DNA of 53,952 nt from assembly GCA_905480285.1 (NCBI GenBank), contig CAJQPT010000033.1:1-53952 (forward strand), written 5' to 3'. Positions within the stretch are counted from its first letter, which is position 1; each line of letters begins with the position of its first letter. The position numbers and the translations under genes are program-made. The notes below the pieces were generated by a model. That model ran no database searches, was not told the origin of the DNA, and saw nothing but the letters and a program-made list of their open reading frames with translations. This DNA comes from an uncultured bacterium. GTDB lineage: Bacteria > Planctomycetota > UBA1135 > GCA-002686595. Positions 19,579 to 28,405 of this stretch are shown here, in pieces.

Positions 19579-20622
<1,044 letters not shown>

Positions 20623-20806
20623 GATGAGTGGTTTGGGGAGGTCCTTGACCCGGACCAGGGAGGGTGCCAGGCGCCTCAGCAGAGGCTCTGGAATGGAGCA
20701 GGGACAGGGCCGGGCCGGTCACCGGTGGCGCTCAGCCCCTGGGGGCTGGCGATCCGGGCAGGGCCCTTCCAGGGTGCCCCTCAGGTCGAATCGGATGGGG
20801 ATGACG

Positions 20807-20821
20807 AATTCCGACCGAATT
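20807..20821. promoter_or_regulatory. Possible operator just downstream of the gap promoter
   Basis: AATTC (20807-20811) and GAATT (20817-20821) are inverted around a 5-base spacer. CGAATT also occurs as a direct repeat 11 bases apart (20805 and 20816), about one helical turn. The site lies at roughly +3 to +17 of the predicted gap transcript. CGAAT recurs at 20787 and 20848. Confidence 0.35.
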
Positions 20822-20830
20822 GGCGGCCAG

Positions 20831-20859
20831 AGAATACGGATGGCTACCGAATGGATCAA
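20831..20859 (-). promoter_or_regulatory. Sigma-70-like promoter of the gap operon
   Basis: On the minus strand TTGATC (20859-20854) and TATTCT (20836-20831) are 17 bases apart. This is the best -35/-10 pair in the window. Transcription would start near 20824 and give a leader of about 200 bases before gap. Confidence 0.6.
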
Positions 20860-21079
20860 CGGAAGCGGGCCGCACTCCCCCCATTGCCGCATCGCATCCG
20901 TCCCCCATCCCTGCTTTGGCAGGCTCGAGAGTGCCCTCCCAGGTGCCCTCGGACCCGCCTCGCGCACCCCTGACGGCCACATCTCCACCGTTCCACGCGC
21001 CCCCAAGCGCACCTGGATCGACTCACGGAGGACGGGGCTTGTCTCACCCCATGCCCCGACGGCTCGGGCCGTCCGCAAC

Positions 21080-22918
21080 GTGACCGGAAGCGCCAAGAAC
21101 AACCACCTCTCCCTGCCCGATCACGCCGAAGCGGGTCAGGGGAGAGCCGAATCCCTCCCCGTCGACCGCCTCCCGGCCGACCCCCTTCCGGCCGACCCCC
21201 TTCCGGCCGACGGGGCGCTCGACCGCGCCCGCGGCCTGGACCTCCCCGTGGAGCGCAGCGGCGCTCCGGGCCACGAGGGGTCCCCGCGCGGAGAGGCTCG
21301 CCCAGCGATCGAGAGGGCAACGTCCGGCGATCGGGACGGCGACGCGCGCTCACCGGAGCCCGACGCCTCACTGGCAGAGACCGCCGCGCCCAGCGGGCCG
21401 TGGTCCTCCCGCTGGAGTCGCCTGGCCCATGGGCTGGGAATCGCCCCCTCCACGCCGGTCGCGGTCGCCCTCAGCGGAGGCGCCGACAGCGTCTACCTCC
21501 TCCATCTCCTCGCTCGTGCGGAGAACCGCCCCAAGGTCCTCGCCATCCACGTGGACCATCGCCTCCGGGGCGATGAGTCCCACGATGACGCGGCCTTCTG
21601 TGCGCGCCTGTGCGCCAAGCTCGGGGTCCCCTTTGCCCGGCGCGTGGCCGAGATCGACCCTGAGGGTGGTGACGTGGAGGGCCGGGCCCGCGAGGCTCGC
21701 TACAAGGCCCTCTCGGCCGAGGCCTCTGCGGCAGGCATCGCGGTGGTCCTCACCGGACACCACGAGAACGACGCCGTGGAGACCCTGCTCATGCGCTGGA
21801 TGCGCGGTTCGGACATCGGGGGCCTCGCCGGCCTCCGGCGCGAGACCGTCCTGGGCAAGGGCCACGTCTCCGGAGACGCCCGCCCCGCCGGGATCCGCGT
21901 CCTGCGTCCCCTCCTCGGGATGCGCCGAGAGGAGGTCCGCAGCGCCCTGCGCCGTGAACAGCTTGGATGGCGAGAGGACAGCTCGAACGACGGGGCTCAG
22001 TTCAGCCGCAACCGCGTCCGCAACGAGGTCCTCCCCCAGATCGAGGAGAGCTGCGGCAAGGAGGGCGTCGAGAACTTCTTCGAGTTCGCCCGGGCCATCG
22101 AGTCGTTCGAGGATGAGCTCGCCGACCGCACCGGCCACGTCCAGTGGCAGCCCGTGGCCCACGAGGCCGCGCGCCGTTCGACCGCCATGCCGGAGCTCGG
22201 TGGGACCATCGACCGGTCCGAACTCGAGGCCCTTGGCGGCCCGCTGCTCCGGCGCGCGCTCGGTCGGCTGATCGGCGAGGGCACCGGGCGTCGCCCCACT
22301 CGTGGCCTGCTCGCCGAGCTGGGAGACAGCATCGAGCAAGGTCGGACCCTGCGCCTCGACGTCCACGAGGGCTGGACCGTCCAGCTCCGCTCCGATGCGC
22401 TGCACCTGACCCCGCCTGCCGAGCGGCTGCACCCGGCGGGTGCAGAGAATGGCGGTGCGATCCCCGCGACCTCGACCGGCACCGGCACCGGCCAGGAGCT
22501 GTCGTCAGCGCCCATTGCGGGCGCCGGCCTGACGCTCGGGATCCCTGGCGCCGTCCAGCTGGAGGATGGTCGCTCCATCTGCGCTGAAGTCGTGACCGGA
22601 GAGTCAGACCTCGATCCTCTTGACCCCACCTCAGTGGAGATTGACGGGGACGGGATCGGTGAGCTCCGGGTTCGCTTCGCTCGCCCCGGAGACCGGTTTC
22701 AGGCCGCTGGCGCCCCCGGGCACAAGCCCGTGAGGCGCTTCCTGGGAGAGGCCGGCATCCCCCGCGAAGAGCGCGGCCTGGTCCCCATGGTCCTGGCGGA
22801 CGAGGAGGTCGTCTGGGTCGCCGGCGTCGCTGTTTCCCAGCGCCGAACGGTGACGAATGGGGCCAGCCGGGTGATCCGACTGTCTCTCGACGGTGCCAGA
22901 GGCAAGTCCGTCCGATGA
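21080..22918 (+). CDS. tilS: tRNA(Ile)-lysidine synthase with long N-terminal extension
   Basis: About 612 residues from GTG 21080; the true start is uncertain (GTG 21248 is also in frame) because no ribosome-binding site or conserved N-terminus marks it. TilS converts C34 of tRNA-Ile(CAU) to lysidine with ATP and lysine, which changes both codon reading and charging. The PP-loop motif ALSGGADSVYLLHLL begins near residue 130; VDHRLRGDESHDDAAFC, TGHHENDAVETLLMRWMRGS, RPLLGMRREEV and WREDSSNDGAQFSRNRVRNEVLP follow in order. The C-terminal domain with VRFARPGDRF, RFLGEAGIPREERGLVPMVL and VWVAGVAVSQR is complete. The N-terminal ~120 residues are low complexity and include a 15-bp repeat. Confidence 0.93.
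   Translation: MTGSAKNNHLSLPDHAEAGQGRAESLPVDRLPADPLPADPLPADGALDRARGLDLPVERSGAPGHEGSPRGEARPAIERATSGDRDGDARSPEPDASLAETAAPSGPWSSRWSRLAHGLGIAPSTPVAVALSGGADSVYLLHLLARAENRPKVLAIHVDHRLRGDESHDDAAFCARLCAKLGVPFARRVAEIDPEGGDVEGRAREARYKALSAEASAAGIAVVLTGHHENDAVETLLMRWMRGSDIGGLAGLRRETVLGKGHVSGDARPAGIRVLRPLLGMRREEVRSALRREQLGWREDSSNDGAQFSRNRVRNEVLPQIEESCGKEGVENFFEFARAIESFEDELADRTGHVQWQPVAHEAARRSTAMPELGGTIDRSELEALGGPLLRRALGRLIGEGTGRRPTRGLLAELGDSIEQGRTLRLDVHEGWTVQLRSDALHLTPPAERLHPAGAENGGAIPATSTGTGTGQELSSAPIAGAGLTLGIPGAVQLEDGRSICAEVVTGESDLDPLDPTSVEIDGDGIGELRVRFARPGDRFQAAGAPGHKPVRRFLGEAGIPREERGLVPMVLADEEVVWVAGVAVSQRRTVTNGASRVIRLSLDGARGKSVR
21170..21214 (+). repeat. In-frame 15-bp minisatellite (LPADP type)
   Basis: Three 15-base units (21170-21184, 21185-21199, 21200-21214) encode LPADP, LPADP, LPADG in the N-terminal extension of the tilS frame. 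Confidence 0.9.
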
Positions 22919-22951: not shown

Positions 22952-23806
22952 GTGCCTCCGCTCCTCCGACTGACCCCAGCCGCCATCCATACGCCCGATG
23001 GGAGCCCCCACAGCGGTTCGCCGCCGGTGGACCCCCGGCGGGCAGCTCTCGTGCGCAACCTGGACGCGGTCCGCGGCATGCTGAATGAGGCGGCCAGCGC
23101 TGCGGGTCGGAGGGCTCCAAACCTGGTCGCGGTGACCAAGGCTGTGGACGACGACATCGCGGCGTGGGTCCTCGACGCCGGCTGCCGGGACCTCGGAGAG
23201 AATCGGGCGGACGCGTTCGCTCGACGAGCCGAACGCTTCGCCAGCGCGGGTCTCGAGGCCCGGTGGCACTTCATCGGGCACCTGCAGCGCAACAAGGTCC
23301 GCCGGGTCCTGGAGCACGTGCACGTCCTGCACTCGGTCGACTCGGAGCGCCTCGCGGACGCCGTCGCGCGCGTTGCCGAGGAGCTCGGGCGCCAGATCGA
23401 CGTCTTCATCCAGGTCAACCTGACCGGGGAGGATGAGAAGCACGGCTTCGGAGGGGACGAGGCCGCCGCCGCCGCTCTGCGGCTGGCGGAATCTCCCGCC
23501 ATCAGCGTCCGTGGATTGATGGCCATGGGCCCGCTTCGCTCGCATCGCACGGCACGAGAGGTCTTCGAGGAGGCGCGCGAGCTCGCCCGGAGCCTCGAAG
23601 ATGAGGTACCCGAGGCCTTCCACCAGCGCCGCTGCGAGCTCTCCATGGGGATGAGCGGCGACGCGGCCCTCGCCACCGAGCTCGGCTCTGACCTCGTCCG
23701 GGTTGGGTCCGCTCTCTTCGTCGATCTTCCACACCCTGCGACGCTCGACCAAGCGCCCCAGCCCCCATTGACTACGGATGCCCTCAAGCGGGCCGAGGAC
23801 GACTGA
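22952..23806 (+). CDS. yggS: YggS/PLPBP family PLP homeostasis protein
   Basis: 284 residues from GTG 22952, with about 25 extra N-terminal residues. The family binds pyridoxal phosphate in a single TIM barrel without known catalysis and controls PLP and amino-acid pools. LVAVTKAVDDD carries the PLP lysine; LGENRADAF, WHFIGHLQRNKVRRVL, LHSVDSERLA, VFIQVNLTGEDEKHGF, VRGLMAMGPL, ELSMGMSGDAALATELGSDLVRVGSALF are the expected blocks. Its stop overlaps the kinase start by one base (TGATG). The neighbourhood (tilS, kinase, purine genes) is not the usual cell-division context. Confidence 0.94.
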   Translation: MPPLLRLTPAAIHTPDGSPHSGSPPVDPRRAALVRNLDAVRGMLNEAASAAGRRAPNLVAVTKAVDDDIAAWVLDAGCRDLGENRADAFARRAERFASAGLEARWHFIGHLQRNKVRRVLEHVHVLHSVDSERLADAVARVAEELGRQIDVFIQVNLTGEDEKHGFGGDEAAAAALRLAESPAISVRGLMAMGPLRSHRTAREVFEEARELARSLEDEVPEAFHQRRCELSMGMSGDAALATELGSDLVRVGSALFVDLPHPATLDQAPQPPLTTDALKRAEDD

Positions 23807-26800
23807 TGGAACCGCTCTACATCGAAGTGGTTGGGTCCAGCGGAGCCCCCGCCGAGCTCCCACGCCAGGGCAAGCTCGTGATCGGCTCGTCCAGCGAGAA
23901 GGCCTCGTTCGTCGTACCTGGCCAGGGCGTCGCGGGTGTCCACTGCGCGATCGGGCGCATCAAGGGAGGAGGCTGGGCCTTGCGCGACCTGGGCTCGGAG
24001 TTCGGCACGCTGCTCAACGGTGCCCCCGTGGAGGCCACGCGCCTGAGCGAGGGCGACGAGATTCTCCTCGGGTCCAAGAAGCTCCGCATCTTCTCGCTCG
24101 CCTCGGCCAAGGGGACGCCTGCCGGAGGCGCTCCCGGCTCCGCAGGCGGCCAACAGGAGCCCGCGCTCGAGGAGCCCGCGCACGAGGAGCTCGCCCTGGA
24201 AGAGGTCGAGGAACTCGTCCTTCCGGAGCCCGCCGCCCCGGCGGCGCCTCCCACAGCTGAGCCTCCCACAGCCGCGCGGACCCGCTCCTCGTCCACGCCC
24301 GCGAAGCCGAGGCCGGCCGCCCAGCCGGGCGCTCCCGCGATCACGGGTTATCAGGTGGACCGCTTGCTCGGACGCGGTGCCATGGGCGACGTCTATCTGA
24401 GCACGCAGGAGAGCCTCGACAGGAGGGTTGCCCTGAAGGTGCTCAAGCCCAAGCTCGCCGGGGACCAGGTCTTCGTCCAGCGCTTCAAGGATGAGGCCCG
24501 CGCCGCCGCCCGCCTCAACCACCCGAACATCGTCACCGTCTTCGACGTGGGCCAGGCAGGAGACCACTACTTCCTGTCCATGGAGTTCATGGCCGGCGGG
24601 TCCATCGAGGCCAGGCTCGAGGAGCTCGGCCCGCTCCCTTGGCGCGAGGCCCTTGACGTCCTCCGGGACTCAGCTGCGGGGCTGGTCTACGCAGAGTCAC
24701 GGGGCATCGTGCACCGGGACATCAAGCCAGAGAATCTGATGCGTAATCAGGACGGGGTCACCAAGATCGCGGACCTGGGGCTGGCGGTGCAGGTGGAGCA
24801 GGAGACCGTGGACTCCAGCGGCGGGAAGATCTTCGGGACGCCGCACTTCATCGCTCCTGAGGTGGCCAAGGGCCAGCCCGCTGACGCGCGCGGCGACCTG
24901 TATGCGCTCGGTGTCACTGCCTACCGCGTCCTCTCCGGCAAGACCCCCTTCGAGGGTCCGACCTCACGGGACATCCTCCGCGCCGCCATGACCGAGGAGC
25001 CCGCCCGGCTCGGGACGCTGGTCCCCGGCCTCCCCGCGCGCCTCGAGGCGACCGTCCATCGACTCCTCGAGAAGGACCCCGACAAGCGTCCGCCCTCCGC
25101 TTCCATCCTCCTGAAGGAGCTGGAGGCCATCCGCTCGGGCGACCTCGGCACGGCCCCGACAGGCGGCCTCACCGCCGGCAAGAGCTCCAAGGGTGGGGTC
25201 ATCGCAGGGGTGGTCGCCGTGGCGGTCGCCGCCGCGGGCTACCTGGTCATCAGCGGCGGGGACGAGCCCGCCCCCGAGCCGGAACCCTTCAAGACCGGCG
25301 GCGCCGCCACGACAGCCAGGGCCGACGAGGAGCAGACCAGCCCTGGCGGCAGTGGCCGTGGCAGCGGCATTGGCACTGGCAGCGGCATTGGCACTGACAG
25401 CGGCAGTGGCACTGACAGTGGCACAGGCCTGGCCGCCCCTCCCTCGGCCGGCGGGTCCGATGCCGCGACGGGTCCGGATCCGGAGGAAGGCGGGGAGAGC
25501 TCCGCGAGCGGCGGAGCGTCCAACGGCGTCACCATCCGTCAGGGCGCCCCCGCTGCTGAAGCCGAGCTGGAGTACCAGGCCGAGCGCGCCACCCTGGCCC
25601 TCAACGAGGAGCTGCTCACCCCCGCAGATCGCGCCGCCCGGCTGCGCCTCCTGGCCGAGCAATTCGCCGGGACCGACGCGGCGGCGCGCGCCTTCGAGGA
25701 GGCCGTGCTCATCGAATCTGGTGCTTCCGCCGCCACCGACGTGGCCCAGGCACGGGCTGCCGGGATCAGCGCGGCGCTGGAAGCCCTGACCGCCGCCGCC
25801 AACTTCGAGGCGAGCCCCTTCCACCCTGGCCAGGCCCTGCGCGCCATGAACCTGATCGTCGCGCCGGCGAATCTGGCCACCGACCCCGAGTTCATGGCTG
25901 CACGCACGGCCCTGGTGGACCGGGCGATGAAGATCGGGCTGACCCGGGGCGAAGCCGCCATGGCCGCCGCCGACAAGGCCGCGGCCCGCGGCGACCTCAG
26001 CGGGACGCGCGCCCCGCTGCGCGATTTTGTCGGCCTCGCGGACCTGCCCACCGCGGAGGAGGCTCCCCTGCTCTTGGGCGTGGGCGCCCCCGCTTCGGTC
26101 AGTGAGCTTGAGGCGCTCGCCGCCGCCGCCAGGGAGCGCCTGAACGACCTCCGGGGAAGCGAGGAGGCGTTCGACGCGATCCGCAAGGCCAAGGAGCGCA
26201 CCGCCGTCGCGGCCTCGCTAGGTGCTGAGCTCGAGTCCGACTTGCGCCAGCTCTCCTTCGCCAGCGCGGGCCAACGGCTTGGCCAGGCCGCCGAGCTCTC
26301 CAGCGATCCCGAGCTCGCCAGTCGACTCCGCGACATGGCCGCGAGCCTTCAGAAGAGCGAGCTCGCCCTGAGCGCGCTCCTCACCGGCTGGGCTGATCCG
26401 GGCTGGCGTCGGCGCGGCGTGATGGATCCGAGGGGAACTGGGAACGTCAGCGTCCTGGGAACCGCTCCCGGCGGGCTCATGCTCGAGGCCGACGGCGCCC
26501 CCGATCGCGTCCCGCTCTCCGCCTGGAGCTCGAATACCAAGGCCCTCGACAACCTGTTCAAGGGGCGACTCGACCGCAGCTGGACCGAGGACGAGGCGGA
26601 GGGTATCGCCACCCTCATGGGCCTCAGCGCCTCACTACAACTGATCGACGCCCTCGACCCGGCGCTGAGCAAGAATGGGCGACGGGTCACCAGAGGCGCC
26701 GCGACCAAGGCGCTGCAGTCCTTCTCCGAGGTCCAGGAGTGGGTGGAGCGGGCACCCGGTAGCGGCTCCTATGCCGCCCGCCAGCGCGGCGCCGCGCGAC

Positions 26801-26934
26801 TCCTGGCTGACGCGATCCTCGCCCGACAGGATGGAGACTGGAGCCTCTGCACCTCCCTCCTGGGGCGCCTCGTCAATGAGAACCGGGACACCTGGGTCGT
26901 CATGCTCCTCTCGGACGGCGGAGCGGAGCAATGA
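23806..26934 (+). CDS. FHA-domain Ser/Thr protein kinase with membrane anchor
   Basis: 1042 residues. An N-terminal FHA-like domain (about 20-97) keeps LGSEFGTLLNG but has lost the usual Ser of SxxH (GVAGVH). An acidic Pro-rich linker follows. The Hanks-type kinase domain (about 180-440) shows GRGAMGDVYLS, catalytic Lys211, HRDIKPEN (303-310), DLG at 323-325 in place of DFG, GTPHFIAPE and DARGDLYALGV. One membrane helix (about 464-485, VIAGVVAVAVAAAGYLVI) separates kinase from an external part of some 550 residues that starts with a Gly/Ser/Thr repeat and continues with Ala-rich helices of unknown function. It is inferred to sense something outside the membrane. Its last four bases overlap the next gene (ATGA). 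Confidence 0.93.
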   Translation: MEPLYIEVVGSSGAPAELPRQGKLVIGSSSEKASFVVPGQGVAGVHCAIGRIKGGGWALRDLGSEFGTLLNGAPVEATRLSEGDEILLGSKKLRIFSLASAKGTPAGGAPGSAGGQQEPALEEPAHEELALEEVEELVLPEPAAPAAPPTAEPPTAARTRSSSTPAKPRPAAQPGAPAITGYQVDRLLGRGAMGDVYLSTQESLDRRVALKVLKPKLAGDQVFVQRFKDEARAAARLNHPNIVTVFDVGQAGDHYFLSMEFMAGGSIEARLEELGPLPWREALDVLRDSAAGLVYAESRGIVHRDIKPENLMRNQDGVTKIADLGLAVQVEQETVDSSGGKIFGTPHFIAPEVAKGQPADARGDLYALGVTAYRVLSGKTPFEGPTSRDILRAAMTEEPARLGTLVPGLPARLEATVHRLLEKDPDKRPPSASILLKELEAIRSGDLGTAPTGGLTAGKSSKGGVIAGVVAVAVAAAGYLVISGGDEPAPEPEPFKTGGAATTARADEEQTSPGGSGRGSGIGTGSGIGTDSGSGTDSGTGLAAPPSAGGSDAATGPDPEEGGESSASGGASNGVTIRQGAPAAEAELEYQAERATLALNEELLTPADRAARLRLLAEQFAGTDAAARAFEEAVLIESGASAATDVAQARAAGISAALEALTAAANFEASPFHPGQALRAMNLIVAPANLATDPEFMAARTALVDRAMKIGLTRGEAAMAAADKAAARGDLSGTRAPLRDFVGLADLPTAEEAPLLLGVGAPASVSELEALAAAARERLNDLRGSEEAFDAIRKAKERTAVAASLGAELESDLRQLSFASAGQRLGQAAELSSDPELASRLRDMAASLQKSELALSALLTGWADPGWRRRGVMDPRGTGNVSVLGTAPGGLMLEADGAPDRVPLSAWSSNTKALDNLFKGRLDRSWTEDEAEGIATLMGLSASLQLIDALDPALSKNGRRVTRGAATKALQSFSEVQEWVERAPGSGSYAARQRGAARLLADAILARQDGDWSLCTSLLGRLVNENRDTWVVMLLSDGGAEQ
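25360..25413 (+). repeat. In-frame 18-bp minisatellite (GSGIGT type)
   Basis: Three 18-base units (25360-25377, 25378-25395 identical; 25396-25413 diverged) encode GSGIGT, GSGIGT, DSGSGT just outside the kinase membrane helix, probably a flexible linker. Confidence 0.9.
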
Positions 26935-27824
26935 GCTCGAACGAAGACCTTCGCGCGGACTGGAATCCGCTGGACCGGTCGGTGGCGCGGGCCGCGGACG
27001 CGCTCCGTGACTCCGAGGTCGGCTCCCCCGACGCTCTCCTGCTGCTCGCCACCGGACCCGGCGACCTCCCCGCCAGGATGACCGACTCCGTGGTGGTCCC
27101 CCTGCGCGAGGTCCCCGGCGTCCCGGCGGCCTGGCACGGAGTGACCCTCCGCGCAGGCCGCCTCGGCGTAGCTTTGGTCTGGCTCATCGAGGACGACGCG
27201 GACCTCGAGCACGGCCCTGAACCGGACTGGAACCGCGCGTTCCCCGTCTGGCTCGCCGGCGCCGCAGGTGCCCGGCTGATGATCCACACCTCCGCCGGGA
27301 CCGCGCTCGGCTCCACGAGCCCGGACGGCGCGACCCTCGTCGCCGGAGACGTCGTCCGCCTCGTCGACCATCTCAACCTCTCCGGGCGTTCCCCCCTCCG
27401 GGGGCTCGGAGAGAGTCGACTCGGTCCGCTCTTTCCCGACCAGACGCGCGTCCACGATGAGCGGCTTGGCGAGCTGGCGTGGGACGCCGCGAAGCGCCGC
27501 GGCCTCGACCTGACCAACGGGATCGCGGCCTGCACCTCGGGCCCCGCCCTCTGCACCCCGGCGGAGCTGGCCTGGCACAAGACCGCAGGCTGCGACGTGT
27601 CGGTGCAGCGTCTCGGCGACCCGTTGATCGCCGCCGCCCATGCGGGGATGGCGTGCCTCGCCCTCGTGGCCATCACGGACGTCGCCGGCGAGGACGACCT
27701 CGACGTCGCGGCCATCGTGGCCCGCGCCGAACACACGGCCCCCGTGCTCGATCAGCTGGTGGACGACGTCGCCCGACAGGTCGGCCCCATCGCCCGAGAG
27801 CGCGCTGCAGAGGTGGAGGCGTGA
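26931..27824 (+). CDS. Purine nucleoside phosphorylase-like protein with altered active site
   Basis: 297 residues. The order of blocks follows trimeric purine nucleoside phosphorylase: LLLATGPGDLPARM, LMIHTSAGTALGS, AGDVVRLVDHLNLSGRSPLRG, TSGPALCTPAELAWHKTAGCDVSV, DPLIAAAHAGMACLALVAITD. Key positions have changed: the phosphate-loop GSGLG is GPGD (42-45), the GRxHxYEG block is replaced by IEDDADLEHG, the purine-contacting Glu of GPS(Y/F)ET is Cys208, the MSTVPE block is QRLGD and the Asn of ITN is Asp250. So fold similarity is clear but ordinary phosphorolysis is doubtful. It overlaps the kinase by four bases and purN by four bases (GTGA), so production is tightly coupled to both. Confidence 0.78.
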   Translation: MSSNEDLRADWNPLDRSVARAADALRDSEVGSPDALLLLATGPGDLPARMTDSVVVPLREVPGVPAAWHGVTLRAGRLGVALVWLIEDDADLEHGPEPDWNRAFPVWLAGAAGARLMIHTSAGTALGSTSPDGATLVAGDVVRLVDHLNLSGRSPLRGLGESRLGPLFPDQTRVHDERLGELAWDAAKRRGLDLTNGIAACTSGPALCTPAELAWHKTAGCDVSVQRLGDPLIAAAHAGMACLALVAITDVAGEDDLDVAAIVARAEHTAPVLDQLVDDVARQVGPIARERAAEVEA

Positions 27825-28405
27825 GCCACCGCCTGGCTGTCCTGGTGTCCGGCACCGGACGGCACCTGGAGAACCTGGCGACGCTATCGACGGATCCAGC
27901 CGCCGACTTCGACGCCGAGATCGGTCTTGTGATTTCGAACCGCCCTGGCGTCGGCGCCCTGGATCGAGCCGCGCGCTTCGGTCTCCGAGCCGAGGTGCTG
28001 CAAGGGGTCGAGGGGGAGTCGGACGAGGCCTACGGGCGACGCGTCTTTGACCTGATCCGAGCGGCCGATGCGGACACCGTGATCCTCGCGGGCTTTCTCA
28101 AGAAGCTGTGGATCCCGGAGGACTTTGCGGGGCGCGTGATCAACATCCACCCATCGCTCCTGCCCGCCTTTGGTGGCAAGGGCTGCTACGGGGCGCGGGT
28201 CCACCGCGCGGTGCTCGCACGCGGATGTCAGGTGACGGGCTGCACGGTTCACCTCGTGGATGAGGTCTATGACAACGGGCCGATCCTGCTCCAGCGCTGG
28301 TGTGCGGTGCACCCCGAGGACACCCCCGAAGCGCTGGCTGCCCGGGTCTTCGAGGAGGAGCTACTCGCTCTCCCCGAGGCCCTGCGCCGCTTCTGGCGCC
28401 GCTGA
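27821..28405 (+). CDS. purN: Phosphoribosylglycinamide formyltransferase
   Basis: 194 residues from GTG 27821, which overlaps the preceding stop as GTGA; longer in-frame readings lie inside the upstream gene. PurN transfers a formyl group from 10-formyl-tetrahydrofolate to GAR in purine synthesis. LVSGTGRHLENL matches the substrate-binding start. ILAGFLKKLW, RVINIHPSLLPAFGGKG (Asn and His of the catalytic triad), YGARVHRAVLARG, TGCTVHLVDEVYDNGPILLQ (catalytic Asp) and EEELLALPEALRRF follow. It is the last gene of the operon, and its 3' end overlaps the convergent mrfB gene by 45 bases. Confidence 0.96.
   Translation: MSHRLAVLVSGTGRHLENLATLSTDPAADFDAEIGLVISNRPGVGALDRAARFGLRAEVLQGVEGESDEAYGRRVFDLIRAADADTVILAGFLKKLWIPEDFAGRVINIHPSLLPAFGGKGCYGARVHRAVLARGCQVTGCTVHLVDEVYDNGPILLQRWCAVHPEDTPEALAARVFEEELLALPEALRRFWRR

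Follow-up and report, generated by a model that had tools for sequence, protein, structure and literature searches.

A degenerate homologue of trimeric purine nucleoside phosphorylase between an FHA-type kinase gene and purN in a planctomycete

The window analysed here is a stretch of 53,952 nt from an uncultured planctomycete. On its plus strand, at 26931..27824, it carries the gene for a degenerate homologue of the trimeric purine nucleoside phosphorylases (PNPs), a protein of 297 aa which we call pseudo-PNP and which was characterised through its ORF, Pfam, NCBIfam and PDB searches, an AlphaFold2 model, a fold search and its orthologues. Judged from these comparisons, it is probably (at a probability of about 0.6) a non-enzymatic pseudoenzyme with the trimeric PNP fold, acting as a protein-protein module linked to the neighbouring kinase. 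At this locus, and within one phylum, a series is found that leads from an intact enzyme via an apparently dead enzyme and a pocketless remnant of 224 aa to clean deletion. The series is graded and stays at one fixed, kinase-linked place; therefore, the transition from a metabolic enzyme to a non-catalytic protein can be read from it. Planctomycetes possess many uncharacterised FHA-type Ser/Thr kinases, and for a kinase of this type the locus offers a candidate partner protein. In the open-licence full text searched, neither a PNP pseudoenzyme nor a PNP-kinase-PurN cluster was found to be described for planctomycetes.

The locus and the fold of its PNP-like protein

The start of the pseudo-PNP gene shares the bases ATGA (26931–26934) with the end of the kinase gene, and its stop shares GTGA (27821–27824) with the start of purN, giving a 4 bp overlap on either side. 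The initial annotation had described a PNP-like ORF at this position with such overlaps, and the gene, with 297 codons, is real. The kinase (23806..26934, plus strand) consists, according to Pfam and a motif and TM scan, of an FHA domain (7e-13), a Ser/Thr kinase domain (Pkinase, 9e-47) with the motifs HRDIKPEN and DLG, a transmembrane helix at about residue 464 and a long C-terminal region. At nearly all loci, and across classes, the DFG motif of the kinases is changed to DLG or, in rare cases, DMG. Downstream, at 27821..28405 on the plus strand, follows PurN, phosphoribosylglycinamide formyltransferase, with a GTG start (TIGR00639, 1.1e-40, 139 bits against a cut-off of 150). Upstream, the conserved cluster also includes a YggS-like PLP-binding protein (22952..23806, plus strand; TIGR00044, 1.3e-40, over the cut-off), whose gene is found in the same place in other planctomycete classes. 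At most loci TilS and YggS precede the kinase. Start codons across the loci are predictions; in the window, the TilS-like ORF at 20510–22918 has a long extension 5' of the ATPase motif (GTG at 20510), and its true start probably lies much later.

The initial annotation had tied the protein to the kinase and to purN, and the order of the three genes is indeed conserved. In the family of the window (f1) an FHA/Ser-Thr kinase gene precedes it in 28 out of 32 loci that are informative, and purN follows immediately in 31 out of 31; the corresponding values for the families f6 and f7 are 16/18 and 19/21. The link to PurN is the tighter one in f1, since in four genomes of this family the kinase does not adjoin pseudo-PNP. 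Wherever a kinase at a PNP-bearing locus was examined, it had both an FHA and a kinase domain, and the C-terminal halves are homologous (hhalign, 99.8% between f1 and f6/f7 and 98.7% between f1 and other classes). In other planctomycete classes, the arrangement YggS-kinase-PNP with a fully intact PNP was present at 11 of 32 sampled loci, two near-relative pairs (L160/L204 and L166/L197) being included among the 11; in two cases PurN came directly after the PNP. The kinase and the intact PNP overlap by 4 bp in L166 and L197, too. Because an intact PNP stands beside the kinase in these classes, the kinase-PNP pair must be older than the loss of catalysis.

That the protein is PNP-like and has kept the order of the sequence blocks, as had been proposed, is borne out by profile and structure searches alike. 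It matches Pfam PNP_UDP_1 with an E-value of 8.7e-18, and its best NCBIfam model is that of trimeric PNP (PRK08202), with 107 bits and hence below the curated cut-off of 218; TIGR01697 gave 89.5 bits (cut-off 197.1), and all curated cut-offs were missed. The top matches in a sequence search of the PDB were all PNPs, the first being the planctomycete enzyme 4m1e (3.6e-22). Structure prediction, which the initial annotation had named as a check, yielded an AlphaFold2 model based on 33 orthologues with a pLDDT of 92.3 and a pTM of 0.92. Foldseek and VIA-align consistently returned trimeric PNPs, the best being 8swu with a Z of 32.2 and an rmsd of 2.0 over 262 residues; 4m1e had a Z of 31.4. The protein thus has both the PNP fold and full-length homology to trimeric PNP (PNP-I).

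Assignment to another subfamily, with an active site of its own, had been considered as an objection. MTA phosphorylase and methylthioinosine phosphorylase belong to the same superfamily (PF01048) but score far lower: 22.5 bits for the former (TIGR01694, cut-off 274.9) and 18.4 bits for the latter, compared with 107 bits for PNP, and the structures all rank as PNP. Both identities were rejected. Models of futalosine hydrolase (MqnB) or other NP-I hydrolases were not listed at E ≤ 1 in NCBIfam, an absence that does not amount to exclusion. The closest known system is the PNP of Planctomyces limnophilus (PDB 4m1e) with its relatives, which have the fold, the trimer-interface loop and the block order in common with pseudo-PNP and whose intact members are found at this YggS-kinase locus in other classes of the phylum.

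Loss of the catalytic set and retention of the trimer interface

The difference from 4m1e lies in the active site. We aligned 119 homologues and scored positions in human PNP numbering. In the window protein His64 falls into a gap, and Arg84, His86 and Tyr88 are replaced by Asp89, Asp91 and His94, Glu201 by Cys208, Met219 by Gln226 and Ser220 by Arg227. On the plus strand, the alignment places the remnant of the phosphate loop at 27051..27059, where the position of Ser33 is taken by Thr41, a normal variant. The former GRxHxYEG block at 27180..27215 now reads WLIEDDADLEHG; Arg84, His86 and Tyr88 are lost from it and it contains the invariant Trp84. In the segment GPALCTPAE (27540..27566) the catalytic Glu201 has become Cys208 and the interface residue Glu205 is the invariant Glu212, and the former GMSTVPEV block has turned into VQRLGDPL (27603..27626). 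Of the replacements listed in the initial annotation, those in the GRxHxYEG block, at Cys208 and in the MSTVPE block therefore hold. Those at Thr41 and Asp250 do not: both Thr at position 33 and Asp at position 243 (human numbering) occur in 11 out of 11 intact same-locus PNPs of the 4m1e type. Asp being normal in intact planctomycete PNPs, the change from Asn to Asp250 was discarded as a rewriting of the active site.

Arg84, His86, Glu201 and Ser220 are all present in 57 out of 57 other planctomycete PNPs, 46 from elsewhere and 11 from the same locus. Among the 62 locus proteins of the window's order the full set of four residues does not occur once (0/34 in f1, 0/21 in f6/f7, 0/6 in the genus g55, 0/1 in f8), and the contrast of 57/57 with 0/34 in f1 is far beyond chance; Arg84, His86 and His64 are missing in all 62. 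None of the 34 proteins of f1 has Arg84, His86, His64, Tyr88 or Met219, Glu201 is retained in 13 and Ser220 in 4. The Glu201 column of f1 holds Glu 13 times, Ser 7 times, Cys 5 times and others, and Cys208 is shared by only a few close relatives. The idea that this cysteine serves as a new nucleophile in catalysis was rejected, as orthologues have Glu, Ser, Cys, Thr or Asp here. In f6/f7 the pocket is altered otherwise. There, Arg84 is Pro, Glu201 is Pro and Asn243 is Gln in 21/21 proteins, Ala118 (human numbering) is likewise new and invariant (21/21), Met219 and Ser220 are kept and Tyr88 mostly so. Further degenerate versions occupy the same place in one genome each of f3 (L209) and f8 (L101). 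The genome of the window encodes a separate, complete canonical PNP on contig C287, and in most genomes of f1, f6 and f7 a canonical PNP likewise accompanies the locus copy, making two homologues. Since the catalytic set is lost and a separate, complete PNP exists, pseudo-PNP is in all likelihood not a salvage phosphorylase, in agreement with what had been supposed initially.

The part of the protein that is kept corresponds to the trimer interface. In calf PNP this interface is formed mainly by the loop 141–168 against residues 87–91 and 196–205 of the next subunit (PMC9916683). Its counterpart in pseudo-PNP, DHLNLSG..PLRGLG....GPLFPDQT, extends from Asp146 to Thr172 (27366..27446, plus strand), and the scored residues of the loop are kept at 82–100% per site in f1. 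For the interface residues scored in the loop 134–160 and in the segment 197–205, the share of sites retained is 97% in f1 and 98% in f6/f7; for catalytic or ligand-contact residues it is 33% and 42%, respectively, versus 98% in intact PNPs. As the scored positions were hand-picked from the literature after the motif blocks had been seen, the contrast of 97% to 33% is descriptive and no blind test. In g55 the scored interface retention is weaker, at 55%. Within f1 Glu201 is variable while the interface residue Glu205, only four residues further, is invariant (34/34). Furthermore, f1 has four tryptophans of its own, Trp84, Trp100 and Trp107 in 34/34 and Trp68 in 32/34 proteins. Trp is not the common residue of other PNPs at any of these positions, and at 107 all 30 intact PNPs examined have Arg.

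Shrunken and deleted versions and the origin of the gene

In the genus g55, which belongs to f1 (L189–L194), the gene between kinase and PurN codes for only 223–258 aa, about 224 aa. Missing from these proteins are the phosphate loop, the GRxHxYEG block, TNAAG and the Glu201 segment, which leaves no pocket; FPVW, SPLIGLG, LFPDRT and AAAHxG are kept, as are all four tryptophans in 5–6 of the 6 proteins. These proteins match the f1 profile with E-values from 1e-12 to 1e-22, and the three tested had no Pfam match at E ≤ 10. They would probably be annotated as hypothetical, and their origin from a PNP is revealed only by synteny together with the f1 profile.

In family f5 (6/6) no PNP is found between kinase and PurN, and at most about 14 bp separate the kinase stop from where PurN is matched. 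The same holds for the one genome of f2, with 26 bp between kinase and PurN, and for the f8 genome G043, where a gap of 351 bp separates the two genes. The surveyed genomes are mostly incomplete metagenome assemblies and therefore single gene absences mean little; the families f2, f3, f4 and f8 are represented by one or two genomes each. The f5 kinase beside PurN (L210–L215) has no recognisable FHA domain and another N-terminal segment instead. The joint loss of FHA and PNP in f5 was not accepted as proof of binding between the two, because one f8 genome still has the FHA domain after losing the PNP; it counts as a lead only.

Where the gene is present, it is under purifying selection. Compared with four relatives in the genus, its dN/dS is 0.09–0.18, that of PurN being 0.10–0.12; close pairs within g55 have 0.30–0.36. 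Orthologues were found in 34 of 36 genomes of f1, where the first survey gave identities of 40–90%, and hardly any genome of f1, f6 or f7 is without the gene. Saltatorellus ferox Poly30 (CP036434, L010) also encodes an orthologue. The dN/dS values and the retention of the ORF in nearly all f1 genomes rule out a pseudogene.

In a maximum-likelihood tree the locus copies and the intact 4m1e-type PNPs are split from the canonical PNPs of the order with a support of 100, which rules out a recent paralogue of the latter. The degenerate locus proteins lie together on one side of a branch whose support of 78 is not decisive, and the branches are long. Gene order leads to the same conclusion as the tree: the window gene derives from the locus PNP, which has probably lost its activity here, and did not arise by copying the canonical PNP.

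Possible functions of the locus protein

Pseudo-PNP would then descend from an active PNP at the same YggS-FHA/Ser-Thr-kinase-PNP locus and have lost phosphorolysis. It may still be trimeric and would then work by binding other proteins. The likeliest partner is the neighbouring membrane kinase with its FHA domain, for which pseudo-PNP could serve as scaffold, substrate or regulator, and PurN is a possible second one. New contact surfaces may be marked by the four tryptophans specific to f1 (68, 84, 100 and 107). Against this reading counts that the gene is dispensable in principle, considering its absence in f5, f2 and one f8 genome, that the kinase is not its neighbour in four genomes of f1 and that g55 retains the interface less well. 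For a nucleoside-phosphorylase-like protein with a role other than salvage there is a precedent in the bark and vegetative storage proteins of poplar, which store nitrogen (PMC3751785). These plant proteins, with no known linkage to a kinase or purN, are a conceptual precedent only.

The initial annotation had favoured purine or nucleotide sensing. In a wider form, the remodelled pocket would bind another nucleoside-like ligand or catalyse another reaction and report to the kinase or to purine synthesis, which we regard as conceivable though rather improbable. PurN as a neighbour would fit, and so would the pocket positions Thr41, Ala122, Gln226 and Asp250, which are conserved at 85–100% in f1 and also count against a pure protein-protein module; the invariant new residues at 84, 118, 201 and 243 in f6/f7, next to the retained Met219, Ser220 and mostly Tyr88, point in the same direction. 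However, the pocket is conserved less than any other part, the changes in f1 and f6/f7 are incompatible with each other, and the Glu201 position is free to vary in f1. What speaks most strongly against ligand sensing being the conserved function is g55, where the gene is kept in place and the pocket is missing. In lineages other than g55, sensing via a remodelled pocket is possible.

A second alternative, quite unlikely in our opinion, is that the locus PNP is slowly decaying and that what remains of it survives mainly as an overlapping frame that carries translation from the kinase to purN. The ATGA and GTGA overlaps, the stepwise course from intact to degenerate, shrunken and deleted versions and the higher dN/dS of g55 agree with such a role. 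It is hard to reconcile with the dN/dS in the genus of the window, which is about at the level of PurN, with four new near-invariant tryptophans, with the presence of the gene in nearly all f1, f6 and f7 genomes and with f5 and f2, which join kinase and purN directly without a PNP. A phosphorylase still active by means of substitute residues, for which the fully kept fold and the Glu201 of 13 out of 34 f1 relatives might speak, is most improbable given the lack of Arg84, His86 and His64 in 62/62 locus proteins, the Arg in place of Ser220 in the window and the canonical PNP in the same genome.

Returning to the protein-protein module, a more specific, rather improbable version can be proposed tentatively: pseudo-PNP could be the kinase's dedicated trimeric signalling subunit, for instance phosphorylated and then read by the FHA domain, and could couple membrane signalling to purine synthesis via PurN. 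If it were such a dedicated partner, the active PNP-kinase pair of other classes would be a moonlighting precursor.

For the locus copies the automatic label 'purine nucleoside phosphorylase' misleads. Of the f6/f7 copies, L076, L078 and L094 were examined, and they reach 223.6–244.5 bits with PRK08202, over the equivalog cut-off of 218, and Arg84, His86 and Glu201 are gone from them; calling them 'purine-nucleoside phosphorylase' is likely a misannotation.
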